Assembly: GCA_027483405.1 (NCBI GenBank)
Contig: JAIXUU010000026.1
Location: 1 to 42,319 of the forward strand
Reading direction: 5' to 3'
Source: Planctomyces sp.
Lineage (GTDB): Bacteria; Planctomycetota; Planctomycetia; Planctomycetales; Planctomycetaceae
Length of the DNA: 42,319 nucleotides
Of this stretch, positions 21,263-42,158 are shown in pieces. The notes beneath the pieces were generated by a model. The model made no database searches. It was not told the origin of the DNA and saw nothing but the letters and a program-made list of their open reading frames with translations. Within the stretch, counting starts at the first letter, position 1, and each line of letters starts with the position of its first letter. The translations under genes and the position numbers were made by a program.

Positions 21263-21290
21263 TTCGACCAGTTGATATGGTCGATTCATC

Positions 21291-21333: not shown

Positions 21334-21373
21334 ACGTTGAAGACTTCTGTTTATCGAAAGAGCACAGAGTCGG

Positions 21374-24852: not shown

Positions 24853-25054
24853 ATTCCGATGCGTCTGAATTCCCAGTACATCGGCATGCATCGCCAGAAC
24901 TTCTTTTCTCTCGGTAGAGAGAAGAAAGCCTGCCAATCGTTTGGCGGTGATTTGAGGGCGGGATTGGGGCTGGTGTAAGTTCACCGATTTGGCCACAATC
25001 TCGCCGCTATCACTTGGGTTATGGTCTTTCCTTCTCAGAGGGATCGCAGCAAGG

Positions 25055-26158
25055 ATGCTGTTCTGGCTGTTGAACATGTACGCCGACGAGATCTCACGCT
25101 GGCAGAGCACCTCGCCGGGCGAGACTCGAGTCTATTTGACGGCTCGAACCGCTCTCGCCACGTTTTCTTCGTTCCTGGTGGCCATCTTTTACGGGCCATT
25201 TGCCATTCGCTGGCTGAAGTCGAACTTTCAAGAGCGTATCGATAGTGCCTCCGCACGATTGAACGAGTTGCATTCGTCCAAAAAGTCGACGCCGACGATG
25301 GGTGGGCTTTTTATTGTGGTAGCGATCGTCGTGGCGGCGCTTTTGTGCGGCGACCTCAGCAATCGATACCTTCAGTTGGCATTGTTAACTGTCGTACTGT
25401 TCGGTGCGATTGGGGCTATTGATGACTGGGTCAAGAACCGTACCTCGCGGCGCGGTCTGACGGCTCGTCAAAAATTTGCTGCCCAATGCATCGCCAGCAT
25501 GCTGGTGCTATTTCCACTCTACTGGAATTTACGAGCCGCACCGCAGCTTGAGGATCTGCCACTGAATCTGGGGTTGGCAACCATCAGTCTGGGCCCGGCC
25601 TTTGTGTTGTGGGGCAGCTTTGTCATGGTCGGCAGTTCCAATGGGGTCAATCTCACTGATGGACTCGATGGACTGGCGGGCGGATGCCTCCTGATCGCCG
25701 GGTCGGCCATGGCCGCTCTCTGTTACCTTTCGGGGCATAAGACGATGGCGGCCTATCTCGAAATGACCCATGTCGTCGGTGCGGGGGAGTTGTGCATTGT
25801 CTATGGAGCGATGACCGGAGCGATCCTGGGTTTTCTCTGGTTCAATTGTCATCCGGCCATGGTCTTTATGGGGGATACTGGCTCACTGCCACTGGGGGCC
25901 TTGCTGGCATTTGGAGCCCTCGTCATTCGGCAGGAACTCCTGCTGATGATGATTGGCGGGATCTTTGTTGTGGAAACGTTGAGTGTGATGGCTCAAGTTG
26001 CGTCCTTCAAATTGACGGGCAAACGCGTACTGCTCTGCTCGCCACTGCATAACCATTTCGTCTTTCGAGGTGATCCGGAAACTCGGATCGTGGTGAGATT
26101 TTGGATTGGAGCGGCTGTGTTGGCATTGTTGGCTGTGGCCAGCCTCAAGCTCCGATAA
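25055..26158 (+). CDS. mraY: Phospho-N-acetylmuramoyl-pentapeptide transferase
   Basis: MraY makes lipid I from UDP-MurNAc-pentapeptide and undecaprenyl phosphate at the inner membrane. The 367-residue protein has about ten membrane segments and the expected motifs: STPTMGGL (about residue 80), the paired DDWVK aspartates, NLTDGLDGLAGG, FMGDTGSLPLG, and the end-loop PLHNHFVFRGDPETRIVVRFW. That loop normally reads HHH; here it is HNH. A TTG at 24989 would add 22 residues, but ATG 25055 gives the typical start MLFWLLN. It is directly followed by ftsW, without the murD usually between them. Confidence 0.95.
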   Translation: MLFWLLNMYADEISRWQSTSPGETRVYLTARTALATFSSFLVAIFYGPFAIRWLKSNFQERIDSASARLNELHSSKKSTPTMGGLFIVVAIVVAALLCGDLSNRYLQLALLTVVLFGAIGAIDDWVKNRTSRRGLTARQKFAAQCIASMLVLFPLYWNLRAAPQLEDLPLNLGLATISLGPAFVLWGSFVMVGSSNGVNLTDGLDGLAGGCLLIAGSAMAALCYLSGHKTMAAYLEMTHVVGAGELCIVYGAMTGAILGFLWFNCHPAMVFMGDTGSLPLGALLAFGALVIRQELLLMMIGGIFVVETLSVMAQVASFKLTGKRVLLCSPLHNHFVFRGDPETRIVVRFWIGAAVLALLAVASLKLR

Positions 26159-26225
26159 ATACTCAGGGTGAAAAATCACCTCGGGGAATGTCGTTGTCGT
26201 GTGAAATGATGAGTCGAGGGGACAA

Positions 26226-27446
26226 ATGAGCACTGCCATTTCCCCGGAAATCCTGGAACTTCAGCCCACTGTTCCCACCAGCGACGAAAAACTGGCCTCT
26301 CAGATCGAGTTTACGAGAACTGTTTTTGTGGCTCTCGCGGGCTTGCTGTTAGGTTTCGGGCTCTTCGTGGTCCACAGTGCCAGTGTGACCAGTCGCCCCA
26401 CAGAAATTGATCAGGTTTATCTTTCCAAGCATCTGACATTCATCGCCCTGGGGCTGGTTGCGGCTGGTGTAGCCGCTGCGATCCCGGCCAAAATCTGGGT
26501 GAGAGCCGCACCCTGGCTGCTTTTGGGAGTCATGATTCTGCTGGTGTTGGTGCTGATCCCGGGAATTGGGGTTCGGGTGAAAGGAGCCCGGCGCTGGCTG
26601 CGCCTGGCGGGATTGACACTGCAACCTTCAGAACTGGCCAAGATTGCCTTGCCACTTTGGGTTGCCGTGAGGATTTCCCTGCAGAATCCGACTTTGCCTC
26701 GCTGGTCGCTGAGTGAAACATTGACTGGCTTTCGCGTCCCGCTGCTCCTTCCGCCCTTCATTGTCATGGGACTGGTGGCTCTGCAGCCCGATCTGGGGAC
26801 GACCTTGTTTCTCTTTGGCGGAGTCCTGCTCACATTGTTCACTGCCGGTTTACCGCTGCGGTATTTCGGATGGGGACTGTTGTCGTTGATTCCTGCCAGT
26901 CTGGGAGTTTTTCTGCTGAAGGACTATCAGCTTCGCAGAATTACAGGCTTTCTGGAGACATGGAGTGATTGGCGCGAGGCACCTTACCAGTTGAAACAAT
27001 CGTTGGTGACTTTAGGAAGTGGCGGCTGGACAGGCGTTGGTTTAGGGATGGGGTATCAGAAGCTCAGCTTTCTGCCGGAAGCGAATACCGATTTTGTGTT
27101 CGCTGTGATTGGTGAAGAACTGGGACTGGTGGGAACGCTTTCTCTGCTGATTTTATGGGGCAGCCTCTTCTATTTTGGACTGCAACTCATTCGCCAGGCG
27201 GGAGAGCCAGAGAGGCCAGAACTGAATGTCGGGCGATTGGCGAGTTTTGTGCTGCTCAGTCAACTGGTCGGGCAGGCTCTGTTGAATATCGCAGTGGTGA
27301 CAGCGATGGTTCCGCCTAAGGGAATTTCTCATCCACTCATCAGTGCGGGGGGGAGCAATCTCATTGTCAGTCTCGTCAGCATGGGCATGATTTTAAGCCT
27401 CACTCGACAAAGTAAATCTCCTGAAGCCCCTGTCTTACCATCTTGA
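26226..27446 (+). CDS. ftsW: SEDS glycosyltransferase FtsW
   Basis: This is a peptidoglycan polymerase of the shape, elongation, division and sporulation family, 406 residues with about ten membrane segments. Key motifs are GARRWLRLAGLTLQPSELAK, the catalytic aspartate in LQPDLGTTLF, the extracellular PEANTDFVFAVIGEELG, and the C-terminal GGSNLIVSLVSMG. It is assigned as FtsW rather than RodA because it lies next to mraY and a second SEDS gene at 30216-31415 has the RodA setting. The ribosome site GAGGGG is four bases before the ATG. It probably shares a transcript with mraY (67-base gap). Planctomycetes generally lack FtsZ, so the cellular role may not be classical division. Confidence 0.9.
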   Translation: MSTAISPEILELQPTVPTSDEKLASQIEFTRTVFVALAGLLLGFGLFVVHSASVTSRPTEIDQVYLSKHLTFIALGLVAAGVAAAIPAKIWVRAAPWLLLGVMILLVLVLIPGIGVRVKGARRWLRLAGLTLQPSELAKIALPLWVAVRISLQNPTLPRWSLSETLTGFRVPLLLPPFIVMGLVALQPDLGTTLFLFGGVLLTLFTAGLPLRYFGWGLLSLIPASLGVFLLKDYQLRRITGFLETWSDWREAPYQLKQSLVTLGSGGWTGVGLGMGYQKLSFLPEANTDFVFAVIGEELGLVGTLSLLILWGSLFYFGLQLIRQAGEPERPELNVGRLASFVLLSQLVGQALLNIAVVTAMVPPKGISHPLISAGGSNLIVSLVSMGMILSLTRQSKSPEAPVLPS

Positions 27447-27465
27447 AGCCCTTGTCTGACGATCT
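27422..27465 (+). repeat. 22-bp tandem duplication across the ftsW stop codon
   Basis: TGAAGCCCCTGTCTTACCATCT (in frame with the last ftsW codons) is followed at once by a second copy with 19 of 22 bases the same. The ftsW TGA is the first three bases of copy two. The unit length is not a multiple of three, so this may have set or moved the stop codon. Confidence 0.7.
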
Positions 27466-27747
27466 TGAGGACTGAGTCGATCAATCAGTCAATTTGCGTT
27501 GAGATTATCGGCTGTAACGTTACCATCGGCTGTAAGGTGCTGATGGATAAAATCGATCAATCAGGCCGGCTCTGGCTCCACTTGTGAATCAACTGGAAGA
27601 ATCGACATCGCCGATACTTCTCGCATGGTGGATAGCCCAGCCATCTCGCACGGATGCGAGAGTCGATGAAACTGCAAGTCGCGGCAAGATGTCGCGGCTG
27701 CAGCTTTCGCCTCGGGCTCTAGTCCTCTTGTGATTTCGGGGAATGCA
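27447..27747. other. Intergenic region, 301 bp, with short repeats
   Basis: No gene is seen. It holds paired direct repeats CGATCAATCAG (27478-27488, 27554-27564) and ATCGGCTGTAA (27507-27517, 27525-27535), and a hairpin TCTCGCA/TGCGAGA at 27644-27661 in the presumed leader of the following gene. The repeats could be operator sites; this is inferred. Confidence 0.5.
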
Positions 27748-28698
27748 ATGTCTTTGCGTACTTTGGCCTGTTCTGCGGCGATTCTTCTGGGGTTGGTTCC
27801 TGCCCTGGCTGATGCACAACTCGTCCCCGGTACTGGGACACTCCTTTCCAATGCCTGTGATGACTTCGAAGACGAAAACTGGAACTTTACTTACAACTTG
27901 CCTAAGGCAAGTTCGAACATTGATAAGACCGTTCGCCATCCGGCTGGATTTTCTGCCAATTACAAATGGCACGAGAGCACCTATCGCGGCACTCCCGATT
28001 TTGTCAAACGCGTGGAAACTCCGGCTGGCGGAATCGCCGGCAGCAAAGGAGCACTCGCGATTCAGACTTTGAATTCAGGAATCCCCGGTCAGCTCTCCGG
28101 CAAGTTCCAGCAGGATGATCTGATCGCTGGTGTCGCTCAGACGATTGGTTACCTGCCAGTCAATCGATCTCCCAGCTTTGTGGTACGCGTCTATATGCCC
28201 CCTTTTGAACAGTGGGAAAAGCGCACTGGCTCGCAGTTTGGCTTCCGTACCGATTGTCAGACGACGATTAACAATCCAGCAGCCAGCAGTGGCTTTGGTC
28301 GATTGAGACGCAACTCCACCCCTGCCAAAAAACTGGAGAATTATTGGCCGGGCTTTTTCGTGCAGTACAATCGCAAAGCGGATGGTTATCAGGAAGACCA
28401 CGCGATTCTGCTACTTCGTTCGGGCTCACGCGGTGAAGATGTTCCCGGGCCGAAAATCACTCAGCCCGGCTGGTGGACGTTGGGGATGTCCTTTACTCCC
28501 GACGGACAGGTACATTACTACGCCCATCCCGGTGTTGAAGACCTCAAGGCCAGTGATCACTTGTATTCGAGCTTCCCTTACAGCTATCGCTGTGAGCAGG
28601 TGAATACATTCTTCTTCAACATCGTCAACATGGATGACGGCAAGACCTGGTCGACTCGATTTATTGTCGATGATCCCAAGATCTATTCCGTTCGCTAA
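27748..28698 (+). CDS. Secreted protein of unknown function
   Basis: The protein has 316 residues with a clean Sec signal peptide: a basic SLRT start, a hydrophobic core, and cleavage after ALADA (about residue 23). The mature part is rich in aromatic residues and beta-strand patterns (CDDFEDENWNFTYN, FFFNIVNMDDGKTW, FIVDDPKIYSV) and contains two or three cysteines that could form disulfides. This resembles a jelly-roll/concanavalin-like fold, but I do not recognise the family. GGGG seven bases before ATG 27748 supports this start. It ends in a strong terminator. Its location is periplasm or outside the cell. Confidence 0.85.
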   Translation: MSLRTLACSAAILLGLVPALADAQLVPGTGTLLSNACDDFEDENWNFTYNLPKASSNIDKTVRHPAGFSANYKWHESTYRGTPDFVKRVETPAGGIAGSKGALAIQTLNSGIPGQLSGKFQQDDLIAGVAQTIGYLPVNRSPSFVVRVYMPPFEQWEKRTGSQFGFRTDCQTTINNPAASSGFGRLRRNSTPAKKLENYWPGFFVQYNRKADGYQEDHAILLLRSGSRGEDVPGPKITQPGWWTLGMSFTPDGQVHYYAHPGVEDLKASDHLYSSFPYSYRCEQVNTFFFNIVNMDDGKTWSTRFIVDDPKIYSVR

Positions 28699-28752
28699 CA
28701 AGCACCGCCAACGAGTCTGTACAGCATCTCGCGACGGTATCGCATCTGTCAG

Positions 28753-28795
28753 GCCGATGGAACTTTCTGATTCAGTTCCATCGGCTGTTTTGTTT
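28753..28795 (+). terminator. Rho-independent terminator after the secreted protein gene
   Basis: GCCGATGGAACT (28753-28764) and AGTTCCATCGGC (28774-28785) form a perfect 12-bp stem with a 9-base loop, followed by TGTTTTGTTT. It is placed 54 bases after the stop codon. Confidence 0.9.
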
Positions 28796-28833
28796 GCCGA
28801 AGCGGTTGATAGGCTTTCCACGAAACGACATCG

Positions 28834-28858
28834 CTCTGTGTGCCATGCCTGCGGCTCT
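28834..28858 (+). repeat. Palindromic repeat family B, copy 2 (degenerate)
   Basis: The 25 bases beginning CTCTGTGTGCCATGC match those at 1372-1396 with only two differences. The 3' arm of the hairpin is disrupted in this copy. It lies between the terminator and the convergent sigma-factor gene. Confidence 0.6.
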
Positions 28859-28901
28859 TATCTCACGGCAAGCCTATAAGAATTCCGTACGCAGGAGTCA
28901 C

Positions 28902-30032
28902 TCAGGCCTGGAACAATTCCACAAGGACTGGCTTCTGCTCGGCATAAAGTTTCAGCTTATCGAGAGCTTTGAGCACGATTTGCCTGACACGCTCTTTGCT
29001 CAGACCAATTCGTCCGGAGATCTCGGAAAGTGACTGGCCACGAGGCTGGCCATCGAGACCAAACCTGGCGGCAATGACAGCTCGCTCGCGTTCCGACAAT
29101 GTTTCCAGAAGTGATGTCAGCTCGCGCTGGCAGGCCTCTTGAGATTCTCCAGGCTGGGTTTCTACCGGGCTGCGGAAATCTTCGAACTGCTCGAGGGCTT
29201 CATGAATGTAAGCCGTCGTGTGTTCGTTCCAGGTCTGCACCTTTTTGAAGTGGCGGTGCATCTGATTGCGGACGGCCCAGGTGGCGTAAGTGCTGAAGCG
29301 ATTTCCCAAACTGATATCGAACAGTTCAACCGAACGGATCAGAGGCATCACGCCTTCGGAAACAAGTTCGGCAAGCTGCTCAATGGATCCACAACATTTA
29401 CGAGCCAGGGCTACGACGAGCCGGAGGTTGGCCTGAACGATCTGATTGCGAGCGGTAATCGATTTGTTCAGCCAGAGGTTGTACTGAGCAAAGTAGGCAT
29501 CACTGGCAGGAGATTTGGCGAGCTTCTTGCGAGCGACTTCTGCCTGATACCGGCAGAAGTTCATCCATAAGAAGAGATAATTTTCTTCATCCGGAGCGAG
29601 TAGGCGAGAGCGGGCGAAGGCGGGCAACAGTGCTCCGGCCGTGGTCGCTTGAGAGACAGGTGAGGCACTCAGGGAATCAATGGTGAGTGGCTTCAACTGT
29701 TCCAGTTGAGCTTCGGCTTTTTTCCGTGCGAAGAGTGGATGATCCACATAGGCCAAAGGAGGGGGAATCAACCGCTGGGGAGCCACAGGGCGTGGAGCTC
29801 GGGCGGTTGTTTTATTCTTAACAGCCGTGGCTGCGGATGAATTCAAAGACTTGCAGATACGCTTTTCAGACACGAGGGTCGAAAGACAAAGTTCCTCTGT
29901 CAAACTTTGAGATTTACTGGAGATTCTGGCAGAAACTTTTGTCGCTGCAGTTGCCGATTTCGATCGGGCTGTCTTTGATCCCGAAGGAGACTTTTTGCTT
30001 TTGCTTCTGGATCTTTCCAAAGTTGCAATCAT
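28902..30032 (-). CDS. RpoD-like RNA polymerase sigma factor, atypical
   Basis: The 376-residue protein has a lysine/serine/alanine-rich N-terminal tail (about residues 1-90) of low complexity, a region 1.2-like helix, region 2 (ANLRLVVALARK, then SVELFDISLGNRFSTYATWAVRNQMHRHF) and a region 4 HTH (SLSEISGRIGLSKERVRQIV). Region 3, about 75 residues in housekeeping sigma factors, is replaced by a roughly 45-residue acidic linker. This fits a group-2/3 alternative factor more than the housekeeping one. Part of region 2 lacks the usual 'LIQEGNIGL' wording (here LAELVSEGVMPLIRS), which may alter core contacts. AAAGG seven bases before the ATG supports the start. Its regulon is unknown. Confidence 0.88.
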   Translation of the reverse strand: MIATLERSRSKSKKSPSGSKTARSKSATAATKVSARISSKSQSLTEELCLSTLVSEKRICKSLNSSAATAVKNKTTARAPRPVAPQRLIPPPLAYVDHPLFARKKAEAQLEQLKPLTIDSLSASPVSQATTAGALLPAFARSRLLAPDEENYLFLWMNFCRYQAEVARKKLAKSPASDAYFAQYNLWLNKSITARNQIVQANLRLVVALARKCCGSIEQLAELVSEGVMPLIRSVELFDISLGNRFSTYATWAVRNQMHRHFKKVQTWNEHTTAYIHEALEQFEDFRSPVETQPGESQEACQRELTSLLETLSERERAVIAARFGLDGQPRGQSLSEISGRIGLSKERVRQIVLKALDKLKLYAEQKPVLVELFQA

Positions 30033-30215
30033 GTCAAACCTTTAGTAGCAGCAGATTAGTTGTTTGGACAATTGATCCTGCCCAGCTAACCGCAGCGTGA
30101 CTTGAGGTTTAACGGCCGAACTTCAGCAAAATTGCTGATGAGATTTTTTGCAGAGAAAACTGATCTCTACGAATGCCGTCACACCGTCTGACAAGCACTT
30201 CGAAAAAGACGGGTA

Positions 30216-31415
30216 TCAACTGTCGGAACGGGTATTCAAATCCTTGAACATGAAAGACTCGGATTGAATTTCCGATCTTCCGTTCAGGTCGATGTTGACC
30301 AGCATGGCCAGAGCGATCGAGGTGGCGACTAAACTGGAACCACCGTAGCTCATGAGCGGTAGCGTGATCCCGGTAATGGGGAGCAATCCCACAGCCATGC
30401 CTGTGTTGATGATCATTTGCGTGATCAGAAGCACAGTAATGCCAACGGCGACGAGTCGGCCGAAAGGTTCTTTACATCGCTGCGAAATCTGCATGCCCTG
30501 CATCAGGAAGATGGCATACAGCGCAACCGTCGCCAGAGCTCCACCCAGGCCGAATCGTTCAGCGACCATACAGAACACAAAGTCAGTCTGGCCGGCGGGC
30601 AGGTGATAAGCGGCCGGTTCTTCGAGCAACTGTCCCTGGAGCTCACTTCCCCAGAAGCCGCCCAGTGCGATGACCTGCTTGGCCTGATGTTGATGATAGC
30701 CGTCACCTCGTGGGGCTGGCCCGCCATCGGTCTGATTGAAAAGTGCCGTCACCCGTGAGCGTTGCTCGGCATTCATCCCCTGCCAGAAGAAAGGCATCAG
30801 ACAGGCGGCCAGCAGCATGACCGCCAGCAGATGCCTGGCCCGGGCTCCGGCGACGAACAGCATGCTGAAAAGGACGGGGACGAAGAGCATGGCCGAGCCG
30901 AGATCGGGTTCCAGCAGGATGAGTGCGACGGGGAACAGCATCACGACGAAGGGGATCACTAAACCGCGCAGTGTGCGATGATTATCGCGGTACATCAGGT
31001 AATGTGCCAAAGCCATGATGAAGGTGAGTTTGGCCATCTCAGAAGGTTGGAAATCGAGAATTCCCAGAGGAATCCAGCTTCGCGCCCCATTGCGAGGTGG
31101 CATGGCGAGTACCAGCACCAAGAGTGGCAGAGAGGCCACAAAGAGCCAGTCACTGAATCGCTTCCAGCGGGAGTAAGGGATGGCCACGACGAGTGCAAAC
31201 GCGATCGCTGCCGGAATGAGCCAGACGACCTGCCGCTCGTACCGGGGCGTAACGGTCTGCAGTTGATCAGCCCGGGCAATGCCACAGAGACCCAAGACGA
31301 CAAGGCCCAGAGCACAGGCCAGGAGGATGAGCGACGGGTGCGAGAAAAAGCCCGTCACTGAAAACGAACTTCTGCTGGTCGGCGAAACATTAAGCCCGAT
31401 TGTGATGCCAGCCAT
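30216..31415 (-). CDS. rodA: SEDS glycosyltransferase RodA
   Basis: The 399-residue, ten-segment membrane protein polymerises peptidoglycan for cell elongation. Motifs are GARSWIPLGILDFQPSEMAK, the catalytic aspartate in LLEPDLGSAMLFVP, HLPAGQTDFVFCMVAERFG, and the C-terminal LPLMSYGGSSLVATSIALAM. The RodA assignment rests on the PSEMAKL and MSYGGSS wording and on the separate ftsW-like gene next to mraY. It is the last gene of lepB-lptB-rodA, starting only 11 bases after lptB with AAAGG six bases before the ATG, so it is clearly co-transcribed. No mreB or class B PBP is in view. Confidence 0.93.
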   Translation of the reverse strand: MAGITIGLNVSPTSRSSFSVTGFFSHPSLILLACALGLVVLGLCGIARADQLQTVTPRYERQVVWLIPAAIAFALVVAIPYSRWKRFSDWLFVASLPLLVLVLAMPPRNGARSWIPLGILDFQPSEMAKLTFIMALAHYLMYRDNHRTLRGLVIPFVVMLFPVALILLEPDLGSAMLFVPVLFSMLFVAGARARHLLAVMLLAACLMPFFWQGMNAEQRSRVTALFNQTDGGPAPRGDGYHQHQAKQVIALGGFWGSELQGQLLEEPAAYHLPAGQTDFVFCMVAERFGLGGALATVALYAIFLMQGMQISQRCKEPFGRLVAVGITVLLITQMIINTGMAVGLLPITGITLPLMSYGGSSLVATSIALAMLVNIDLNGRSEIQSESFMFKDLNTRSDS

Positions 31416-31426
31416 GACGACCTTTG

Positions 31427-32215
31427 TTACGCAGCGCGGCGTTCTTCGAATTGCCCGGCCTGAAAGATCCCTTTGCTCTCGATAATCGACTTGGCGTCAA
31501 AGCGACTACCAAAGTAATAGCGCTGGGCGTCCGGGTCATTCAGGACCTGTTCCGCATCGCCACTACAGAGAATGCGCCCGCCGAAGACGATGTAGCTGCG
31601 ATCGGTAATCGTCAACGTTTCCCGTTCGCGGTGATCTGTGAGGAGAATCGATATCCCGGAGTTCCGGAGTTCGGCAATGATATCCTGAATACTGTTGATG
31701 GTGACGGGATCGATCCCTGTGAAAGGTTCATCGAGCAGAATGAGATTGGGGCGACTGGCCAGACAGCGGGCGATTTCCAGCCGGCGGCGTTCCCCACCAG
31801 AGAGTGTGGAGGCGATCTGATGTCGCTTTTCGGCTATGCCAAACTCATTGAGGAGTTCGTCGCAACGGTAATTTCGTTCTTTGGCCGTGAGCGGCATGAA
31901 TTCGAGGACAGCAATCAAATTCTGATCGACAGTCAACTTGGTGAAGATGCTCGTGTCCTGCGGCAGATAACCCATGCCGGCCTGAGCCCGCCGATAAAGG
32001 GGCCAGTTGGTGACATCGATGCCGTTGAACATGACCTTGCCGCGAGTGGGTGTGACCAGCCCGCACGTCATGCGGAAGCTGGTCGATTTCCCGGCCCCGT
32101 TGGGCCCGAGCAGACCGACAACTTCGCCGGGGTTCACATGGAAGCTGACATCCGCTACAGCCAGCTTGCGCGGGTATTGCTTGACGAGACCTGTGCATTC
32201 CAGCAGTTTGGGCAT
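31427..32215 (-). CDS. lptB: LPS export ABC transporter ATP-binding protein LptB
   Basis: This 262-residue ABC ATPase of the Lpt system powers lipopolysaccharide transport to the outer membrane. Walker A is GLLGPNGAGKST (about residues 36-47). The Q-loop region GMGYLPQDTSIFTKLTVDQN is diagnostic of LptB, the signature is LSGGERRRLEIARCLA, Walker B is LILLDEPFTGIDP, and the switch histidine lies in LTDHRERETL. A C-terminal extension of about 20 residues (FDAKSIIESKGIF onward) is longer than in Escherichia coli. AAGGAGG six bases before the ATG is a near-perfect ribosome site. It lies between lepB and rodA. The partner permeases LptF/G are elsewhere. Confidence 0.95.
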   Translation of the reverse strand: MPKLLECTGLVKQYPRKLAVADVSFHVNPGEVVGLLGPNGAGKSTSFRMTCGLVTPTRGKVMFNGIDVTNWPLYRRAQAGMGYLPQDTSIFTKLTVDQNLIAVLEFMPLTAKERNYRCDELLNEFGIAEKRHQIASTLSGGERRRLEIARCLASRPNLILLDEPFTGIDPVTINSIQDIIAELRNSGISILLTDHRERETLTITDRSYIVFGGRILCSGDAEQVLNDPDAQRYYFGSRFDAKSIIESKGIFQAGQFEERRAA

Positions 32216-32314
32216 CTGATCCTCCTTGATCCGATGTCAGTTTAGCCTGATCGTGTCGAGCCGTACAGATGACGTTGGCAGCCCGAGATTGTGGGGAATT
32301 CTGGCAAGCGGCGC

Positions 32315-34180
32315 TTACCGAATGCGCGTCCAGCGCCACCACTGGGGATAGAAGGGAATGGAGAACCTGGGGTAGTTTTCGACATCCGGGTTCTGGGCTT
32401 TATTGACCTTATGATAGAAGAACGGCAATGGTGCATACCCTTTGCCATCATTCATGAAGGGAACGCCATGCGGCCAGAAAATACTGAAGGCCTTGCCCAC
32501 CAGGGCTGAGCCAGGGACAGCATGCCTGCGGTCGGCACCACGAGTGTTCGACCATTGTCGGGCATCCTGACTTCGCGGTGAGTTATCGCCCATCATGAAG
32601 TATTCGTCGGCTCCCAGAGCGGGGAATTCGGCGGCAAATGCATGGGCTTCGTACTCGGCTCCCCAGGCGAGCGGATCGCTCAAAAGTGCCGCCAAGCGAC
32701 CAGGGCTCGAATACTCGCTGGGTGAAACGGCAGCATCGGGAAAGGCCCGTCCGTCACTCAGATCGCGGTCGGCCCGGTAATAAATGTCGCGGAAGATGCG
32801 GAGTTCTTCGACATCGACTTCGCGGCCCTGAGCAAAAATCCCTACGGGAGAGAGGTCTCGCAATTGCGGACCATAGAGAACTGGTGGTGCATAGGTGGTT
32901 TCAGCATCAAATTCGACCAGTTGATCGTTGATCCAGACGCAGAGTCTCTGATCGAAGTTGGCAAACTCCAGATTGAACCACGAACCTGTCGCAACGACGG
33001 GACTTTTGCTGCGGGCAATCTGGCGAAAGGCCTCTTCGCCGGCCAGTTCATCCGACATCCGCAGTGTGATGAAACCATCGGTTCCAATCACACACTGGTA
33101 AACCCGCACGCCACGTGTGAGTTCGATAATCACGTTCGCATTCTCGATCCCTTCGGCGGCAGGGCCCAGCCGGAATTTTCCAGTGACGGCGATGTCGCCG
33201 ACCCAGTAGGGATCAGGTTCGCCACGCTGGCCGTTGCCCATGGGGGCGTAATGGTTGTAGGAGCAGAAGTCGGCGATCAACTGAGGTTTCGCGGGGAAAA
33301 TCATCGGCTGATTATCCAGGGCCTGATTCCAGGCTTCGGGCGTGGGAAGATAATGCCGATATCTGAGCCATTTTCCGGCTTGAGACTCGTTCCCGGTGAT
33401 CGAGAAGGATCTGGCTTTTCGATCGGCTTTCCACCCGGCAGGATCTACCTTCCAGTCGGCTGGGGAAACATCGTTGGCGGGAATTTCCACACCCTGCCAG
33501 CGTTCGGGCCAACCGGCATCGATCAGAACCCGTGGTGCTTCGGTGTCGTCGTAAACTGATTGCTGAATGACGCGCTGCTTGTTGGGGTCATCCTTGCGAG
33601 CGATTTTGTATTCGCCATCCAAGCCGGGACGCACGTAGATATCGCCGCGCCAGATGCGGAGCATTTCGCCGGGAAGGCCCACCAGACGTTTGATGTAGTT
33701 GGTCTCGGGCTCTTCGGGGAACTTGAAGACGACCACATCCCACCGGCTGGGTTTGGAGAGTTCGTAGGTCCATTTGTTGACGAGAATTCGGTCGCCACTG
33801 AAGACCGGGCGGTCTTTGATATCGTTCTCAAAGCGGCAATTGGGGCAGGTGGCCGTTTCGATCCGCATTTCGAGTGTGCCATTCGAGCGATTGAGTTCAT
33901 CGCTGGCACCGATCGCAAACTGATGTCGGCACTGGCTGCAGGTCACCTCTTTGCAGCGACCATAGAGCGTGGGAGCCATCGATCCCGTGGGGATGACAAA
34001 GGCTTCAGCAAGGAATGTGCGCAGAATGAAGGCGAGAATGAACGCAAAGGCAATCGATTCAATGACTTCCCGCGTATCATTGCCGGAGCGGACGCGCGTC
34101 TTCGCCTGGGGAGCGGCCATTGAAGCCGGCTGAACTGCGACTCCTTTACCAAACCAGGTACTCTTCGCCGTCAAGCCCAT
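32315..34180 (-). CDS. lepB: Signal peptidase I with zinc ribbon and large inserted domain
   Basis: Signal peptidase I removes Sec signal peptides at the outer face of the inner membrane. The N-terminal membrane segment is at about 41-60. The catalytic serine is S67 in PTGSMAPTL and the general-base lysine K164 in NYIKRLVGLPGE; box E, GDNSPRSQDAR, lies near residue 550. At 621 residues it is roughly twice the usual size. Two insertions explain this: a cysteine pair set CSQC (81-84) and CPNC (112-115), probably a zinc ribbon directly after the serine box, and about 270 residues (about 240-510) with a beta-sandwich pattern resembling a concanavalin/LamG fold (GKFRLGP, VIIELTRGVRVYQC, WFNLEFANFDQRLCVWINDQ). 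TGAGG lies six bases before the ATG. It is first in lepB-lptB-rodA. Confidence 0.92.
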   Translation of the reverse strand: MGLTAKSTWFGKGVAVQPASMAAPQAKTRVRSGNDTREVIESIAFAFILAFILRTFLAEAFVIPTGSMAPTLYGRCKEVTCSQCRHQFAIGASDELNRSNGTLEMRIETATCPNCRFENDIKDRPVFSGDRILVNKWTYELSKPSRWDVVVFKFPEEPETNYIKRLVGLPGEMLRIWRGDIYVRPGLDGEYKIARKDDPNKQRVIQQSVYDDTEAPRVLIDAGWPERWQGVEIPANDVSPADWKVDPAGWKADRKARSFSITGNESQAGKWLRYRHYLPTPEAWNQALDNQPMIFPAKPQLIADFCSYNHYAPMGNGQRGEPDPYWVGDIAVTGKFRLGPAAEGIENANVIIELTRGVRVYQCVIGTDGFITLRMSDELAGEEAFRQIARSKSPVVATGSWFNLEFANFDQRLCVWINDQLVEFDAETTYAPPVLYGPQLRDLSPVGIFAQGREVDVEELRIFRDIYYRADRDLSDGRAFPDAAVSPSEYSSPGRLAALLSDPLAWGAEYEAHAFAAEFPALGADEYFMMGDNSPRSQDARQWSNTRGADRRHAVPGSALVGKAFSIFWPHGVPFMNDGKGYAPLPFFYHKVNKAQNPDVENYPRFSIPFYPQWWRWTRIR

Positions 34181-34505
34181 TCAAGCCTCAAATCTGTATC
34201 GGTACGCTGCGATCGTGACGCCAGTTGTGGTGCCACGGATTACGACTGACCACCCAGTACAACACCCTGTTTACGTTTGCGAGAGACATCTCGTGAGAAT
34301 GAACCCATGAGAATGACCTCGGGGAGTTTACTCGAAAACCTGCGACGGGGAGAAGTCAGAGTTGATGCATTTGTTCAGTGGTGGTTTTGTTTGGCGAGGG
34401 ATGGATGATGGGGCTGGTGGGCATGAGCCAGAATGAGTGACTAGGATAAAGCCAATCAAGCATCAGGGAAGGTAGCGGGGTTCAAACCTCGACAGGGAGT
34501 TGCTG
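34181..34505. other. Intergenic region, 325 bp, divergent
   Basis: No gene is found. It must contain the lepB operon promoter (minus) and any promoter for the small lipoprotein gene (plus). A short direct repeat TGAGAATGA occurs twice near 34293-34315. Nothing else stands out. Confidence 0.5.
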
Positions 34506-35045
34506 ATGAGCGAATCAATTTGGGACACTTCGAGTCGCACGCCTCACTTGCGAGACTACTCGCGAACTTCCATGGGCTTTTTTTTCGATGCACTTAATGA
34601 CGCAAATGGACAAAGATTTTTGCTACGATTCATGAGATTGGCCATCTGGGCCCTCCCTTTAATGATGATTTCAGCCCCGGGTTGCAGCGACAGCCCAAAG
34701 AGATCCAACGCTGAAACGGAGAAGAAGACGACCCGCGACAGACGGCTCAATGCTGGATTCTGTGACGAGGCGATCCAAATCATCGGAGATGAGATCGTTC
34801 GAGGTACCCATCAATGCAGACCTTCGGAAGAGGTAACCCGACAGATATCACAACATCTTACGAAAGAAGTCTTGAAGGATGATCGCTTTGAGATTGATAC
34901 TCCGCTTCAAATCTCAAAGGATATATTTGTCGTTGTTTATCGGGGTTCTGGAGGCGGAGCTTTCCGTGAAGTCTGCCTCATGCTCAAGTACAATAGTGAG
35001 TCGAATTGCTCAGTTCTCAGTTCATGCATCCGTTGTATTGAATAG
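34506..35045 (+). CDS. Hypothetical small lipoprotein-like protein
   Basis: The frame from ATG 34506 gives 179 residues, with AGGGAG six bases upstream. A hydrophobic segment ends in MMISAPGCS (about residues 51-59), resembling a lipobox; a start at the internal ATG 34632 would give a textbook signal peptide, but no ribosome site precedes it. The mature part is charged and cysteine-containing (C at EAIQ, HQC and two near the end), with a GSGGGAF loop. I recognise no family. Codon use and AT content differ from the housekeeping genes around it, so it may be recently acquired. It is followed by another unknown membrane protein on the same strand. Confidence 0.65.
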   Translation: MSESIWDTSSRTPHLRDYSRTSMGFFFDALNDANGQRFLLRFMRLAIWALPLMMISAPGCSDSPKRSNAETEKKTTRDRRLNAGFCDEAIQIIGDEIVRGTHQCRPSEEVTRQISQHLTKEVLKDDRFEIDTPLQISKDIFVVVYRGSGGGAFREVCLMLKYNSESNCSVLSSCIRCIE

Positions 35046-35181
35046 CTCGTTTTCAGGAAGTTGAGATCTTCGCCAAGGTGCCATTTCTGTGCGGATACGA
35101 CAGAACCGTAATCCAGAGCTTGAGCACCAACAAAACCATGAGAAACGTGCGAAGACAACACAACTCACGGCGGCTCATTAC

Positions 35182-35928
35182 ATGTCACGTTTTCGATGGC
35201 TCATCGTTTTATCATTATCCTTTGTTCTCGTCACCATTGTCTTGGTGTATCCTCGGATTGAAAGGCTGACGTCCTACAGACGATTAATTCTGAATCCGCA
35301 TGCCACTTCACGACTGGCCATTCAACCGAATTCAATGTATCCCCAGCCCGTGCCCGACACCCAGCTGATCGATACATTCTACTCTCAATTCCAAGTACCC
35401 GCTGGTTTCTTCACAAGTCTCGATGCTCGCAAGACATGGTTAAAGCTTCAGAATGCGAATGGTGATTCCGTTTTACTTACTCAACTTCATTATGAAACTC
35501 ATTTTTCTGCCGACGGTAACTACACATTCCATCGCCAGTCGCTGAATGAGCAGGCTAGAACTTCGTGGCAAGTCCTCTTGATGCCAGAAGATGAGTATGC
35601 AGAGCACTGGGCATTAATTGCTGCAAAGATTGCCATTCCGTATGCTGATCAGGATGTTTCTACATTCCACACATCGACCACAAAGGGCATAATCCGTTTT
35701 GGGTCGACCACCACCTATCCACACGTTGTCAGTATGGTTGTCTGGGACATTTCACGTCCGATTTCCCAAGAGATCATCATCACGATCGCTGATCCTGAAC
35801 TGCGCCATTCAACAGTGGAAACCATCGCCTCCAGCTATCGATTCACAATAGATGCTATCCCGCCAGTCGATATTCAGCAGCAGTTGGCAAGCGAGGCAAG
35901 CAGGTCTTTCAGGAGGCACATCGACTGA
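35182..35928 (+). CDS. Hypothetical membrane-anchored protein
   Basis: This is a 248-residue protein with one N-terminal membrane segment (FRWLIVLSLSFVLVTIVLVY, residues about 3-23) and a soluble beta-rich domain in the periplasm. The frame also opens from a GTG at 35089, but the ATG at 35182 starts right at the signal anchor. No family is recognised. It follows the small lipoprotein gene by 136 bases and could be a partner in the same transcript. The base composition is more AT-rich than the neighbouring housekeeping genes. Confidence 0.7.
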   Translation: MSRFRWLIVLSLSFVLVTIVLVYPRIERLTSYRRLILNPHATSRLAIQPNSMYPQPVPDTQLIDTFYSQFQVPAGFFTSLDARKTWLKLQNANGDSVLLTQLHYETHFSADGNYTFHRQSLNEQARTSWQVLLMPEDEYAEHWALIAAKIAIPYADQDVSTFHTSTTKGIIRFGSTTTYPHVVSMVVWDISRPISQEIIITIADPELRHSTVETIASSYRFTIDAIPPVDIQQQLASEASRSFRRHID

Positions 35929-35974
35929 GATGGATTCAGAGTATTGATGGAGCCAAGACTCAATGCGTTTATTC

Positions 35975-36029
35975 GGTGTTTCTTGTTCCTATCGTCACCC
36001 AGACGTGCAGAGCCACGTCTGGGCCACCC
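35975..36029 (+). repeat. Palindromic repeat family A, copy 1
   Basis: CCCAGACGTG (35998-36007) and CACGTCTGGG (36014-36023) are perfect 10-bp arms around CAGAGC. The flanks GGTGTTTCTTG on the left and GGGCCACC on the right recur in two other copies, 36791-36845 (+) and 37431-37482 (-). This is a dispersed REP-like element. Confidence 0.8.
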
Positions 36030-36044
36030 GGCCACCTAACAGCG

Positions 36045-36473
36045 CTACGAAAACATTTGGGGTGAGACATTCTCAGCCTGAGAGAACAATACGTAAGATA
36101 TCGTGTGCTTAAGTATTGCTTGTATTTCCTCCGGACATACTTCAACTTTTAGAGGAGACGTGGGTATGCAGTTACGCGAATAGCCGAGATTGCGACCTTT
36201 TCCAGGTAGGTAGTCGTATGAATATAGCCCCCTGCCCGACATTGCAAGAAAGAAGTCGTTGTTACCGGCTGCGTCAGTATAAACGCTTGCACAAGACACA
36301 GGCAATTCAACAAAAAAAGAATGCAACGCCAAACGATTTTCAGAAGAATTCTTGACGGATCGAGGCAAGAATCCACGCCCTCCGGTCGCAAAGTGCCCAA
36401 TACACCCCGATTCATCAACAGCATACCAGTCTAAATCTTCACATTGTTCTTCAATATCTGATATTTCCGCCAT
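36045..36473 (-). CDS. Hypothetical small cytosolic protein, possibly immunity-like
   Basis: This is a 142-residue protein with no signal peptide. The N-terminus IEEQCEDLDWYAVDESG, then GHFATGGRGFLP, is a pattern I associate with small proteins found beside polymorphic toxins, but this is recollection, not a search result. A repeated GRG (GRGFLP, GRGLYSYDY) and a Tyr-rich centre are visible. AGGTG six bases before the ATG supports translation. It lies alone between repeat copies with no toxin gene next to it in the window. The function is unknown. Confidence 0.6.
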   Translation of the reverse strand: MAEISDIEEQCEDLDWYAVDESGCIGHFATGGRGFLPRSVKNSSENRLALHSFFVELPVSCASVYTDAAGNNDFFLAMSGRGLYSYDYLPGKGRNLGYSRNCIPTSPLKVEVCPEEIQAILKHTISYVLFSQAENVSPQMFS

Positions 36474-36674
36474 AGATGCACCTATTCTTTGTGTGCCAAC
36501 GGTATGTCAATAGTCGCTTTAAACAACGTTCTAGTGATACTTTCAGTTCTTCATTTCTCGCCGTAAAGAAATCATCGGCTGGATGGTTTGTTCAGAGAGG
36601 ATGAGCTCTGTGCGATGGTGGCGGTTTCAAGTGAGCATGCTGGAATTGTGGATGGTATTGATCTTTGAATTTGA

Positions 36675-36720
36675 AAACACATGCTTCCTCAGGGCCGGAA
36701 GCATGGCACACAATGGGGTA
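36675..36720 (-). repeat. Palindromic repeat family B, copy 3
   Basis: CATGCTTCC (36680-36688) and GGAAGCATG (36697-36705) are perfect 9-bp arms with an 8-base loop. On the minus strand it reads TTGTGTGCCATGCTTCC, then the return arm and TGTGTTTTC, paralleling the copy at 1368-1410 on both flanks. Confidence 0.65.
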
Positions 36721-36790
36721 TATTTCCATCTTGATCCATGGTCACAACCACACCCTTCGGGGGACCTCAGGGACGTGCCACCCCGTTGAT

Positions 36791-36845
36791 GGTGTTTCTT
36801 GTGACTGTTGTCACCTAGACGTGCAGAGCCACGTCTGGGCCACCC
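36791..36845 (+). repeat. Palindromic repeat family A, copy 2
   Basis: This copy has the same layout as copy 1: GGTGTTTCTTGTG, then CCTAGACGTG/CACGTCTGGG arms (one G-T pair in the RNA), then GGGCCACC. It matches copy 1 over about 50 bases with a few substitutions. Confidence 0.8.
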
Positions 36846-36897
36846 TGCGATGACAGGAAGCACAAATGCAAGCAATAACTCAAAGCATTCCATCCGC

Positions 36898-37326
36898 TTA
36901 CAATCGCCATGGCCGAGAAATCGAGGCATCACCAATTTGCACATCGCCATGATGCTCATAGAACTCACCCCCCTCAAGAAGAAATTCTAATATCGGCCTG
37001 TAGACATGTAGCAGCTCGGCATTGCGGTAGTCAGGCTGGCTAACCAGATCCACATATATCTCGAGTGCACGCTGACAAAACGGCGACCACGATCGACTTG
37101 CTGATATTTTTTGGATTGCCTCCATCGCGTCGGCAGGAATATTGCTGCAGTCCACCGTTTTGTCGAATGGCGAGAGTGGATCTATATGGTACGCTCTGCA
37201 GTAGTCACGATATCGTCGTAGAAACTCCTTGAATAGTTGCAAATACCTAAGAATCTTGCCGTGATCAAATGAAACGAACTCTTGCGACATAAACGCAACT
37301 ATATCACTTCTTTCTTCTAGAGCCAT
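36898..37326 (-). CDS. Hypothetical small helical protein
   Basis: This is a 142-residue, all-helical-looking cytosolic protein with no signal peptide or membrane segment. It is rich in aromatic/acidic patches (FDHGKILRYLQLFKEFLRRY, EFLLEGGEFYEHH). A GTG at 37341 adds five residues; neither start has a strong ribosome site. No family is recognised. It lies between repeat copies, as does the gene at 36045-36473, on the same strand. Low GC and isolation suggest recent gain. Confidence 0.6.
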   Translation of the reverse strand: MALEERSDIVAFMSQEFVSFDHGKILRYLQLFKEFLRRYRDYCRAYHIDPLSPFDKTVDCSNIPADAMEAIQKISASRSWSPFCQRALEIYVDLVSQPDYRNAELLHVYRPILEFLLEGGEFYEHHGDVQIGDASISRPWRL

Positions 37327-37430
37327 GATGCGTATTCTCACTTTGTTGGAGGTTCCAGAAAATGCTTCTATCGTGGTAGCTTATAGTCATACTTACCATT
37401 CCATGGATTTGGGCATAAGCCATGAGCGTG

Positions 37431-37482
37431 GGGTGGCCCAGACGTGGCTTTGCACGTCTGGGTGACGATAGGCACAAGAGAC
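37431..37482 (-). repeat. Palindromic repeat family A, copy 3, inverted
   Basis: On the minus strand it reads TCTCTTGTGCCTATCG, then CCCAGACGTG and CACGTCTGGG arms around CAAAGC, then GGGCCACC. It matches copy 1 closely but points the other way, which argues against tandem duplication. Confidence 0.8.
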
Positions 37483-37596
37483 TTTTGTGCATCATACGGC
37501 AATGCCTGTAGAACTCTCCGGTTGAAAGAATTGAGTTTTACCTGGGACGTAGGGTGCGTGGAGTCCTCGGACTGCACCGGTTTTACAATGGCAGTG

Positions 37597-37680
37597 CGAG
37601 TTGGTGTATTGGCATGTGCCCTGCGCATTTAAATATAGCGGAATATGGTCCGCACAGCGGACCCTACTACGGTGCTTGGG
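37597..37680 (+). repeat. Palindromic repeat family C, copy 1
   Basis: A 30-base block (37638-37667) with GGTCCGC/GCGGACC arms around ACA is identical to 42070-42099. Upstream, GTGCGAGTTGGTGTATTGGCA resembles the corresponding stretch before the second copy. It lies 18 bases past the block's end from the DUF1501 stop codon and may also act as its terminator, though no T-run follows on the minus strand. Confidence 0.75.
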
Positions 37681-37685
37681 CGGCG

Positions 37686-39143
37686 TTAGGCGAATAGCTG
37701 CGTTACGGGGAGGCCTTTGCCGTCTTCTGTGACATAGAATGGGCGGCCTTCGATGGAGTAGACCGTCCTGGGGCTGATGCCCATCGCCGTCATGATTGTG
37801 GCGTGCAAGTCCATGACGGTGACGGGATCTTTGATGGCGATCAGCGGGCGTTCATCAGCCGTCTGGCCATGGACATAGGCTTTCTTCATGCCACCGCCAA
37901 ACATCAGGACGCTGCTGCCGCCGGTGAAATGTCGATGCAGGCCGTAATGGGCCATTTCACTGATGTTGTCGCCGCGGAAGGCGGCTTGATCCCCGGCGTT
38001 TGAGCCGGGTTTTCCTTCCATTAAGGCGTCGCGACTGAACTCGCTGGCGACAATCACCAGGGTGCGATCGAGCAGCCCTCGTTCATCGAGTTCTTGAACG
38101 AGCGTGGCAATCGGGCGATCAATTTCCTGATGCATGCGGGCCACGGTTTCATGCCCATTCGCATGCGTGTCCCAGTGCAGGAACGGAACGTACTCGGTCG
38201 TGACTTCCACGAACCGTGCGCCATTCTCAATGAGTCGGCGGGCAAGGAGACAACCTCTGCCAAAGCGACCGGTATTATACTTTTCCTGAACCTCTTTCGG
38301 TTCGAGCGTGATATCAAACGCCTCCCGCTCTTTCGAACTCAGCAGACGGTAGGCGTTATCGAGGCTGCGAAGCATCGATTGCTGCTGATAATCGCTGAGT
38401 TGATCGCGATGAGGATTTTTATCGATCAACTGCCGGAAGAGCCGCTCACGATTGGCGAATCGCGTGTTGGTCATGCCCTGGGGCGGCTTGACCGATTGAG
38501 CCGCTTCTTCCGGGAACGGAAGGTTCATTGGCCCGAACTCGCTGCCAAAGAAGCCGGCTGTCGTAAACGCCTTGAGTTCTTCGCTTTCACCGACACCCTC
38601 CAGTCTCTGCCCGATATTGATGAACGCGGGCATGACCGGATTTCGCGGCCCCAGGACCTTGGCCATCCATGAACCTAAATGCGGGCAGGCGACTGTCTGG
38701 GGAGGGACATAGCCTGTGTGCCAGTGATACTGATGGCGGCTATGGAGAATGCTTCCCAGATCGGGTTGGACAGCACTGCGAATGAGTGTCCCGCGATGGA
38801 GGATCTGCGCGATGTTTTCGAGCCCTTCGCAAATCTGCACACCATCAATGGAGGTATTGATGGCAGGGAAAGTGCTGAGCATGTCTGCAACGGCCAGACC
38901 CTTTTCGAAAGGGCGGTAGCGTTTGGGGTCAAAGGTGTCGGGAGCCGCCATACCGCCGGCCATCCACAGCAGAATGCAGGCATCGGCCGTCGGTTTGGGA
39001 TGGACCAGCGGCTCTTCGGAATTGGCCCGCACGACTCGTGGTTCGCCCGTGGCCATGGCCGCCAGGCCAGCCATCGTCAAGGCTTTGACAAAATCCCGCC
39101 GGACAATGGACCGTGGCGTGGAAGGATCAATTTCAAAAGCCAT
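37686..39143 (-). CDS. DUF1501 family protein, Tat-exported
   Basis: The protein has 485 residues. A twin-arginine signal (SIVRRDFVKALTMAGLAAMA, about residues 12-31) predicts export in folded form. The body has the DUF1501 features: CILLWMAGGMAAPDTFDPK, SAVQPDLGSILHSRHQYHWHTGY, then HWDTHANGHETV, DERGLLDRTLVIVASEFSRD, FGGGMKKAYVHGQTAD and the end PVTVMDLHATIMTAMGI. It is distantly related to sulfatases/alkaline phosphatases; the activity is unknown. GAGAGA nine bases before ATG 39143 supports this start over 39221. It follows a DUF1549/DUF1553 gene by 106 bases on the same strand, the usual pairing in Planctomycetes. Confidence 0.95.
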   Translation of the reverse strand: MAFEIDPSTPRSIVRRDFVKALTMAGLAAMATGEPRVVRANSEEPLVHPKPTADACILLWMAGGMAAPDTFDPKRYRPFEKGLAVADMLSTFPAINTSIDGVQICEGLENIAQILHRGTLIRSAVQPDLGSILHSRHQYHWHTGYVPPQTVACPHLGSWMAKVLGPRNPVMPAFINIGQRLEGVGESEELKAFTTAGFFGSEFGPMNLPFPEEAAQSVKPPQGMTNTRFANRERLFRQLIDKNPHRDQLSDYQQQSMLRSLDNAYRLLSSKEREAFDITLEPKEVQEKYNTGRFGRGCLLARRLIENGARFVEVTTEYVPFLHWDTHANGHETVARMHQEIDRPIATLVQELDERGLLDRTLVIVASEFSRDALMEGKPGSNAGDQAAFRGDNISEMAHYGLHRHFTGGSSVLMFGGGMKKAYVHGQTADERPLIAIKDPVTVMDLHATIMTAMGISPRTVYSIEGRPFYVTEDGKGLPVTQLFA

Positions 39144-41751: not shown

Positions 41752-42158
41752 CGGATGGATAAACTCGGCAGGTATGTTTTGTCGCGACAATCAAGACTTT
41801 GGGCTGGCGGCACAAGGTTTGGATGTCGGGTCGACTTCAGTGTTGAGGGACAATTCACTGTAACTGTCATGACGGGGGAATCCAAGAGGTAAGCACTCAT
41901 TGATGCGTTTCGGCGGGGCGTTGACGTGGGGCAACTCGTGGAGCGAAGGGATTGAAAGCGGTTCTGTCTGCGGAACACGGGGCGCCCGCAGCCGGTTGAT
42001 CCTGTGTGATCGTGCGAATTGGTGCATTGGCAGGCACTCTGCTTTTGAAGATGTCGTGGGTGGTGGTGGGCGGAATATGGTCCGCACAGCGGACCCTACG
42101 GTGAAAAGGCTGGTGTGCCCCCTGCTGAATCATATTCGGGGCTCTTCGAATCACATTG
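41752..42158. other. Intergenic region, 407 bp, with repeat family C copy 2
   Basis: No convincing gene is seen. It holds the promoter region of the DUF1549/DUF1501 operon, which I cannot pinpoint, and the repeat at 42009-42105. The short reading frames on both strands show no family features. Confidence 0.55.
42009..42105 (+). repeat. Palindromic repeat family C, copy 2
   Basis: The block 42070-42099 is identical to 37638-37667, including the GGTCCGC/GCGGACC hairpin, and is followed by GGTG as in copy 1. The preceding GTGCGAATTGGTGCATTGGCA matches copy 1 with two differences. Both copies point the same way and bracket the DUF1501/DUF1549 pair. Confidence 0.75.

Follow-up and report, generated by a model that had tools for sequence, protein, structure and literature searches.

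Three copies of a hairpin repeat lie within 1.5 kb of each other in a 42,319-nt stretch of planctomycete DNA (from here on, the window), and the question raised by this locus is what kind of element these copies represent and how they reached their positions. The window is contig C289 of the host genome (G000; 5.36 Mb in 487 contigs), which belongs to the genus Planctopirus. The same genus includes G001, i.e., Planctopirus limnophila DSM 3776; of the 37,010 bases of its contig C2, the first 8,000 were compared and show full identity to plasmid NC_014149.1 of P. limnophila. REP elements are widespread, and their mode of movement is unsettled. The repeats of the window are very probably REP elements, i.e., palindromes with a GT[AG]G tag, and belong to a REP/RAYT system of Planctopirus.

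The repeats of the window and their family in the host genome

An independent repeat search recovered, as direct and inverted pairs, the three copies that had been reported from a reading of the letters of this DNA (the sequence-only reading). Together with genome searches, it places copy 1 at 35975..36032 and copy 2 at 36791..36848, both on the minus strand when read from the tag described below, and copy 3, located also by folding, at 37431..37482 on the plus strand. Copies 1 and 2 are 90% identical as a direct repeat, copy 3 is complementary to them (94% and 88%, respectively, over 52 nt), and the copies are spaced 640–816 bp start to start; no further copies were found in the rest of the 42-kb window. 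All three lie between larger ORFs, though small unverified ORFs overlap some of them (only the window copies were scored in this respect). An ORF of 142 aa (36045..36473, minus strand) is present between copies 1 and 2, and another of 147 aa (36898..37341, minus strand) between copies 2 and 3.

A search of the host genome with the repeat sequence gave 41 places at E ≤ 10, 36 of these at E < 0.01, and the covariance model R1 detected 48 copies at E ≤ 0.01, distributed over many contigs and in both orientations. Most of them are singlets, and the flanks differ among most copies; some pairs share longer left flanks. The conserved unit, as seen in 33 copies (three of the 36 were omitted, having no gap-free alignment), is of approx. 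55 nt and extends from TTTCTTGTGAC to CCACCCTGCC (query positions 5–59). These results favor the dispersed, mobile REP-like element that the sequence-only reading had proposed, given that the copies are not limited to this locus and their boundaries are sharp and conserved.

Read tag-first, that is, on the strand opposite to the one used in the earlier reading, the element consists of GGGTGG, a first hairpin (CCCAGACGTG-gctttg-CACGTCTGGG, hairpin A), a second hairpin (TGAC-GAYA-GTCAC, hairpin B) and AAGAAA, with GTGG leading, the two hairpins next and AAGA last; the hairpins share one G, which ends hairpin A and begins hairpin B. The GTGG motif, whose reverse complement CCAC is conserved at query positions 50–53 in 28–32 of the 33 copies, is located directly at the foot of hairpin A, where REPs canonically carry their GT[AG]G tag (5' side of the hairpin). 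The high number of dispersed copies in one genome is likewise characteristic of REPs. Instead of the single palindromic hairpin of 20–40 bp expected for these elements, two consecutive hairpins that span approx. 55 nt are present, and therefore the family is filed as a REP variant. The 20-base left flank that had been described as conserved corresponds to hairpin B, which reads GTGAC-TRTC-GTCAC in that orientation, plus the tail.

In copy 1, hairpin A (35998..36023, minus strand) has 10 bp, as seen from the sequence and the family consensus; the GTGG tag, CCAC on the plus strand, was placed at 36024..36027 from the sequence and the family alignment, and the hairpin B position (35985..35998), assigned from the sequence and the family structure counts, is decayed with two mismatches. 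Copy 2 carries hairpin A at 36814..36839, the GTGG tag at 36840..36843 and, as indicated by the sequence and by single-stranded DNA folding, hairpin B at 36801..36814 with an intact 5-bp stem and the loop AACA, all on the minus strand. Copy 3 shows on the plus strand the GTGG tag (37433..37436), hairpin A with the loop GCTTTG (37437..37462, sequence and folding), the hairpin B position with the loop GATA and one mismatch (37462..37475, sequence and folding), and an AAGAGA tail (37476..37481). The hairpin A loops are CAGAGC, CAGAGC and CAAAGC on the plus strand of copies 1, 2 and 3, as had been read before; the stem of 10 bp, which had been taken as perfect in all copies, is imperfect in copy 2, where it contains one T·G (CACCTAGACGTG). 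Hairpin B thus has mismatches in two window copies (1 and 3) and an AACA loop in the remaining one, and the family has better examples than these. When folded as single-stranded DNA, copy 3 was 4.05 sd under its shuffles (0 of 200 were as good) and copy 2 was 2.35 sd under (5 of 200); the minimum-energy fold predicted for copy 3 is hairpin A without hairpin B.

Other identities were considered for the host family. A REPIN as the unit is not supported: the copies are mostly singlets, and those of the window have the spacing given above. An integron attC site seems unlikely too, its typical core motifs not being visible in the repeat sequence. Besides this family, the window contains other interspersed repeats. 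The palindrome GGTCCGCACAGCGGACC is found at 37638–37667 and 42070–42099 (100% identical over 30 bp) and was matched at several places in G001–G003 among the matches listed, and a repeat around CCCTTCGGGGGACCTCAGGGACGTGC at 36747–36783, just left of copy 2, occurs in at least 14 places in G003.

A RAYT gene flanked by the repeat and its occurrence in related genomes

The host genome has five matches to Y1_Tnp, the best of which (C214:1541–1906) lies in an ORF bracketed by repeats. This RAYT gene is located at C214:1511–2020, and its 169-residue core (C214:1511–2017) scores 118.1 bits against the curated family model NF047646, 'REP-associated tyrosine transposase' (cut-off 80), and 55 bits against Y1_Tnp. 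The best solved relative of the clade profile is TnpA_REP 4er8 (E 1.3e-8; 38 bits in total, 33 in the best stretch); from the alignment to this structure, the HUH motif and the single catalytic tyrosine of TnpA_REP enzymes were recognized, and H59-V60-H61, W109 and Y130 are invariant in 15 members of the clade. The tyrosine motif is Y-[ILMR]-H-x-NP in 15 of the 15 rows. The gene is surrounded by repeats at C214:1353–1429 (minus strand), 2036–2112 (plus strand) and 2497–2573 (minus strand), and the two that adjoin it are inverted with their tags outermost. A Y1 transposase gene of the TnpA_REP type flanked by the same repeat, for which the sequence-only reading had suggested to look elsewhere in the genome, is thus present on C214, as is characteristic of REPs with a cognate RAYT gene. 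The repeats are probably moved by the RAYT.

The association was also observed outside the host. Within the flanks fetched around each gene (approx. 1.5 kb, or less near a contig end), the model R1 found matches with E ≤ 1 at 14 of the 17 RAYT loci of this clade versus 0 of 12 non-clade RAYT loci. As for the clade loci lacking such a match, a structural descriptor detected elements on both sides of the RAYT in L088, L086 has a partial element that is cut off where its stretch ends, and L080 a decayed one. Among 59 relatives, R1 matches are present in 23, and 17 have a clade RAYT, for which a score of 150 bits or more was required; R1 matches occur in 16 of these 17 genomes versus 7 of the other 42 (P 3e-8), with a single match in three of the 16 (G014, G027 and G033). 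The genomes with repeats and no clade RAYT are G003, G004, G005, G008, G011, G049 and G057, of which G004 and G008 contain clade-like RAYT fragments, and G024 has the RAYT without repeats.

From 65 elements a further model, R2, was derived, and it was run together with the clade profile on 170 genomes of the family; a clade RAYT was here defined by a best E ≤ 1e-35, a cut chosen after the list had been inspected, and the 50 clade RAYTs thus counted include some that are fragmentary or interrupted by stops. At least one R2 match was found in 47 of the 50 genomes with a clade RAYT (three had none) versus 54 of the 120 without, with a median of 20 versus 0 copies, these counts being lower bounds because at most 29 candidates were scored per genome. 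At least 10 copies were detected in 35/50 genomes with the RAYT versus 15/120 without it, and in 23/35 versus 11/98 when only the 133 genomes outside the 37 used earlier were counted (P 2e-9, kinship ignored). The 15 genomes with at least 10 matches and no clade RAYT include G003, from the same genus as the host, and several of the repeat-bearing genomes without a clade RAYT are incomplete assemblies or hold RAYT fragments. The abundance of the repeat follows the presence of this RAYT clade.

Some related arrangements were observed in these genomes. G002, which lacks the RAYT at the C214 site, holds another clade RAYT (L084, G002:C1:4338479–4338967), 56% identical and flanked by REPs with different hairpins; this suggests some turnover of RAYT lineages in the genus. 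In G030, five inverted doublets with the tags outward were seen among the matches listed (contigs C48, C79, C92, C107 and C133), four spaced at 68 bp and one at 132 bp start to start, an organization that resembles REPINs. A second REP-like type of Planctopirus, with the hairpin CCGGTTGAAATTCYGATTTCTACCGG or a close one, was observed at L072:828 and 1475, L216:1457, L203:3764 and 4301, and L036:2705; one of the L072 copies shares the GGGTGG tag, a second mini-hairpin (loop CAA) and the AAGA tail.

A segmental duplication within this intergenic region would account for the clustering of three copies in 1.5 kb and their absence from the remainder of the 42-kb window; nevertheless, this origin is practically ruled out, because the genome holds 48 dispersed copies with sharp boundaries, whose flanks differ between most of them, and a RAYT gene elsewhere is flanked by the same repeat. 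The repeats could also be the terminal repeats or MITEs of a transposon other than RAYT, given that the inverted copies at both ends of the transposase gene resemble terminal inverted repeats. This is hardly credible: the enclosed gene is a RAYT, the tag and the hairpin at its foot are as in REPs, and most host copies are singlets.

Covariation and loops of the two hairpins

The two hairpins were analyzed in an alignment (A3) of 65 elements found in the host genus and in planctomycetes related to it; these elements were collected with, and fitted to, the structure under test. In A3, 97.2% of the stem cells are paired although both stem sequences vary widely between genera; 12 of the 14 pairs have changed on both sides, with 155 double-change cells versus 36.2 in shuffles, and when the partner was slid by 1 to 3 columns at most 12 such cells were left. 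The number of pair types in A3 is not above that of the shuffles (23 versus 23.8). For the alignment of 35 host copies, 92.2% of the cells pair and double-change cells amount to 10 versus 3.6 in shuffles, with a number of pair types about equal to that of the shuffles (10 versus 9.6). RNA helices normally contain G·U pairs; the corresponding G·T is present in only 1 of 791 cells of A3, and in 9 of 488 cells of the host alignment. An alignment built on the tested structure favors that structure, but not per se the exclusion of G·T.

The loop of hairpin B is also informative. It is GNA or GNNA in 49 of the 65 elements of A3 and in 28 of the 35 host copies, and only 5 of the 17 four-base GNNA loops are GNRA. 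In A3, the AAGA tail is present in 49/65 elements, and the modelled stem is preceded by the four letters TGGC or TAGC in 60/65; when elements were picked by their AAGA tail regardless of the loop, 41 of 53 distinct elements showed a GN(N)A loop. A strict structural descriptor gave 42 matches in 157,589 bp of loci, versus a mean of 0.0 in five order-1 Markov sets and 0 in the 12 control RAYT loci. According to the available text of a study on DNA oligonucleotides, GNA and GNNA loops closed by G-C pairs produce DNA mini-hairpins with exceptional resistance to heat and nucleases (PMC4686876). The match to this rule is less full in Planctopirus, where A-T is the second pair counted from the loop. 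From the near absence of G·T across genera and the GNA/GNNA loops of hairpin B, we infer that selection acts on the repeat as single-stranded DNA rather than as RNA.

Repeat loci in other species, a possible mechanism and known systems

The C214 locus is co-linear in G001 except between the second and the third repeat: homology stops at query position 2108 and resumes at 2502, both inside repeats, and the interval contains an 89-aa ORF in G000 and an ankyrin gene in G001. G002 has at this site 98 bp versus the 1,474 bp of G000 that comprise the RAYT and all three repeats, between flanks that are 93–94% identical. No clean target duplication was found at the G002 site and its 98 bp differ, and for this reason an insertion in one lineage, or a deletion or replacement in the other, are both possible. 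In the window, G001 matches the block between copies 1 and 2 with 93% identity (35975–36847) and G002 with 94% (36033–36823); beyond this block, as far as the DUF1501 gene at 37685, only patches of homology are left, with 90 bp around copy 3 matched at 82% in G002 and approx. 90 bp near 37594–37676 matched at 71–73% in both species. A 265-bp segment (36586–36850) that includes a repeat is present in additional direct copies in G001, and in G002 copy 2 is cut within the main hairpin. The 147-aa ORF had no match in the compared stretches of G001 and G002 (plus strand), nor among the matches listed. At C396, the single repeat of G000 corresponds in G001 to a truncated repeat and a full one, equally oriented, with a 1.3-kb segment between them. 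Other repeats are inside unbroken shared blocks, e.g., both repeats of C441:1–4000 in G002.

Synteny breaks are enriched at the repeats, although this result is only suggestive. Of 44 breaks, 12 are at 30 bp or less from a repeat versus 2.5 expected from uniform placement, a value that 0 of 20,000 random sets reached; when the null was confined to noncoding positions, 6.3 were expected (P 0.02), with 9 versus 4.8 within 10 bp (P 0.05) and 13 versus 7.8 within 50 bp (P 0.04). These figures concern five loci chosen for having repeats and only G001 and G002, the breaks are not independent, and their positions were set by hand, disregarding second copies, hits to dispersed repeats and any HSP shorter than 200 bp. 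A control stretch without a repeat (window 14400–34399) shows no break in G001 and a single one in G002. Because P is just 0.02 under the noncoding null, the enrichment remains suggestive and the idea that the repeats act as seams a lead. Ten hand-picked ORFs between repeats gave Pfam matches to SUKH (four), SUFU (one) and ankyrin (one), and four gave none, in what is not an enrichment test; genes of these kinds between repeat copies (SMI1/KNR4, i.e., SUKH, SUFU and ankyrin) include L204:13292–15498, L207:2204–2611, L037:3682–4146 and L079:885–1367. Three more ORFs between repeats, the two of the window and C214:2152–2421, gave no Pfam match. The SUKH, SUFU and ankyrin families are often found in poly-immunity arrays.

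Breaks of other kinds were also noticed. One with a change of strand in G002 is located at 28810–28895 of the window, with no copy of the REP nearby. At L221:3412–3743 (C110 of G000), the DNA to the left of 3412 and that to the right of 3743 are approx. 420 kb apart in G002, and the right edge coincides with a repeat at 3668–3744.

These comparisons bear on the view that the repeats are carried passively by homologous recombination or segment exchange, the RAYT being a relic. It would fit the synteny breaks located on repeats in the window and in C214, the segment that G001 has between two repeats at C396, and the extra copies of the repeat-bearing 265-bp segment in the same species; however, it leaves the tag, the compensated hairpins, the flanking of the RAYT and the co-occurrence with it unexplained, the enrichment of breaks is weak under the noncoding null, and other repeats stay within unbroken blocks such as C441:1–4000 in G002. 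As the explanation of the family, we consider it unlikely. Even less probable is that the repeats act mainly as RNA, as terminators, mRNA stabilizers or a family of small RNAs, with an incidental link to the RAYT. REPs elsewhere are reported, in the available text, to be active in transcripts (PMC12306157), the copies of the window fold well and are placed between larger ORFs, and the host copies contain some G·T; against this, G·T is nearly missing from stems that covary across genera, the four-base GNNA loops fall outside GNRA in 12 of 17 cases, neither strand of the window copies has a T-run after hairpin A, and such a role does not explain why the repeats flank the RAYT and co-occur with it. 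Rfam gave no match on a repeat in window 35000–38200; an RNA family was rejected, as the one match obtained there, to a snoRNA, was far below the cut-off and inside a neighbouring ORF.

If the repeats are REPs of a RAYT system, the strand with GTGG would become single-stranded, for example in replication, and the HUH/Y1 enzyme would bind the GTGG tag and hairpin A, cut beside the element through a 5'-phosphotyrosine, and copy or move REPs in trans. In other REP/RAYT pairs the enzyme cuts the single-stranded REP beside the hairpin, according to the available text (PMC8266576). Hairpin B, with its GNA/GNNA loop and C-G closing pair, would most likely stiffen and protect the 3' side of the folded strand and fix the distance to the cut. 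As described in the same text, the Marinomonas enzyme whose guide was changed to GTGG still cut at CA, and at CC on a CC substrate (PMC8266576); by this guide rule, GTGG would direct a cut at CA or CC, and the conserved ACAAGA just 3' of hairpin B could supply the CA, which is the boldest part of the mechanism. Guide-based changes of the cut site failed for the E. coli and Stenotrophomonas enzymes (PMC8266576), and for this reason the prediction may not carry over. The dispersed repeats, in turn, may be seams at which segments with small genes are gained, lost or exchanged, either by homologous recombination or by the enzyme. The full proposal, in which a built-in mini-hairpin caps and protects the single-stranded DNA intermediate of transposition and sets the cut at ACAAGA, and the repeats are seams for small-gene cassettes (with immunity-type SUKH, SUFU and ankyrin genes among them) between Planctopirus species, is put forward tentatively.

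The nearly G·T-free covariation across genera and a hairpin whose loop mostly follows the rule of DNA mini-hairpins represent evolutionary evidence that folded single-stranded DNA, and not RNA, is under selection. If the repeats are indeed exchange seams, they would provide a route for the turnover of immunity-type genes. The roles of the second hairpin and of the RAYT are directly testable, because the elements occur in P. limnophila DSM 3776, a cultured and harmless strain whose RAYT gene is located at G001:C1:1132095–1132601; genetic tools have reportedly been published for the group of P. limnophila.

Within the literature text that was searched, which excluded figures, supplements and most subscription papers, neither a two-hairpin REP nor a Planctopirus REP was found. 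GTAG repeats are described in the PVC superphylum, with GTGG in most GTAG-20 elements of O. terrae (PMC3733652, 2013), and GTGG is enriched around a marginal set of subclass 2.2 genes (PMC6006769, 2018), in the available text of these reports. Like the GTAG/GTGG-tagged REPs of both studies, the family described here is a palindrome present in many copies that bears GT[AG]G at the 5' foot of a hairpin, and its copies flank a cognate RAYT gene. It differs in the separate second hairpin, with a GNA/GNNA loop, that directly follows the first one and precedes AAGA, whereas the types described there, as compared by their text descriptions, are short, bulged long or 'double foot' hairpins. The two-hairpin form with a DNA-type mini-hairpin is apparently a new variant within the RAYT-linked REPs. 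The enzyme shares with E. coli TnpA_REP (4er8) the HUH motif and the single tyrosine, as well as an IWQ motif in most rows of the clade; the cognate REP of the E. coli enzyme is in contrast a bulged hairpin with GTAG, as the available text describes it (PMC8266576). REPINs, as portrayed in the text of PMC3116915, are similar to the inverted doublets of G030 with their tags outward, and different from the host copies, which are mostly singlets. The class 3 TnpA_Y1 genes are also present in Planctomycetes and flanked by secondary structures, but, in the description available, they have a CnGA foot and a YV[VI].EQ tyrosine motif (PMC6006769); this class was ruled out for the present gene by the GTGG foot and by the Y-[ILMR]-H-x-NP motif. 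Finally, the stable DNA mini-hairpins have, like hairpin B, a GNA or GNNA loop closed by G-C pairs; according to the available text those are DNA oligonucleotides intended for aptamers (PMC4686876), whereas hairpin B is a conserved part of a genomic element.
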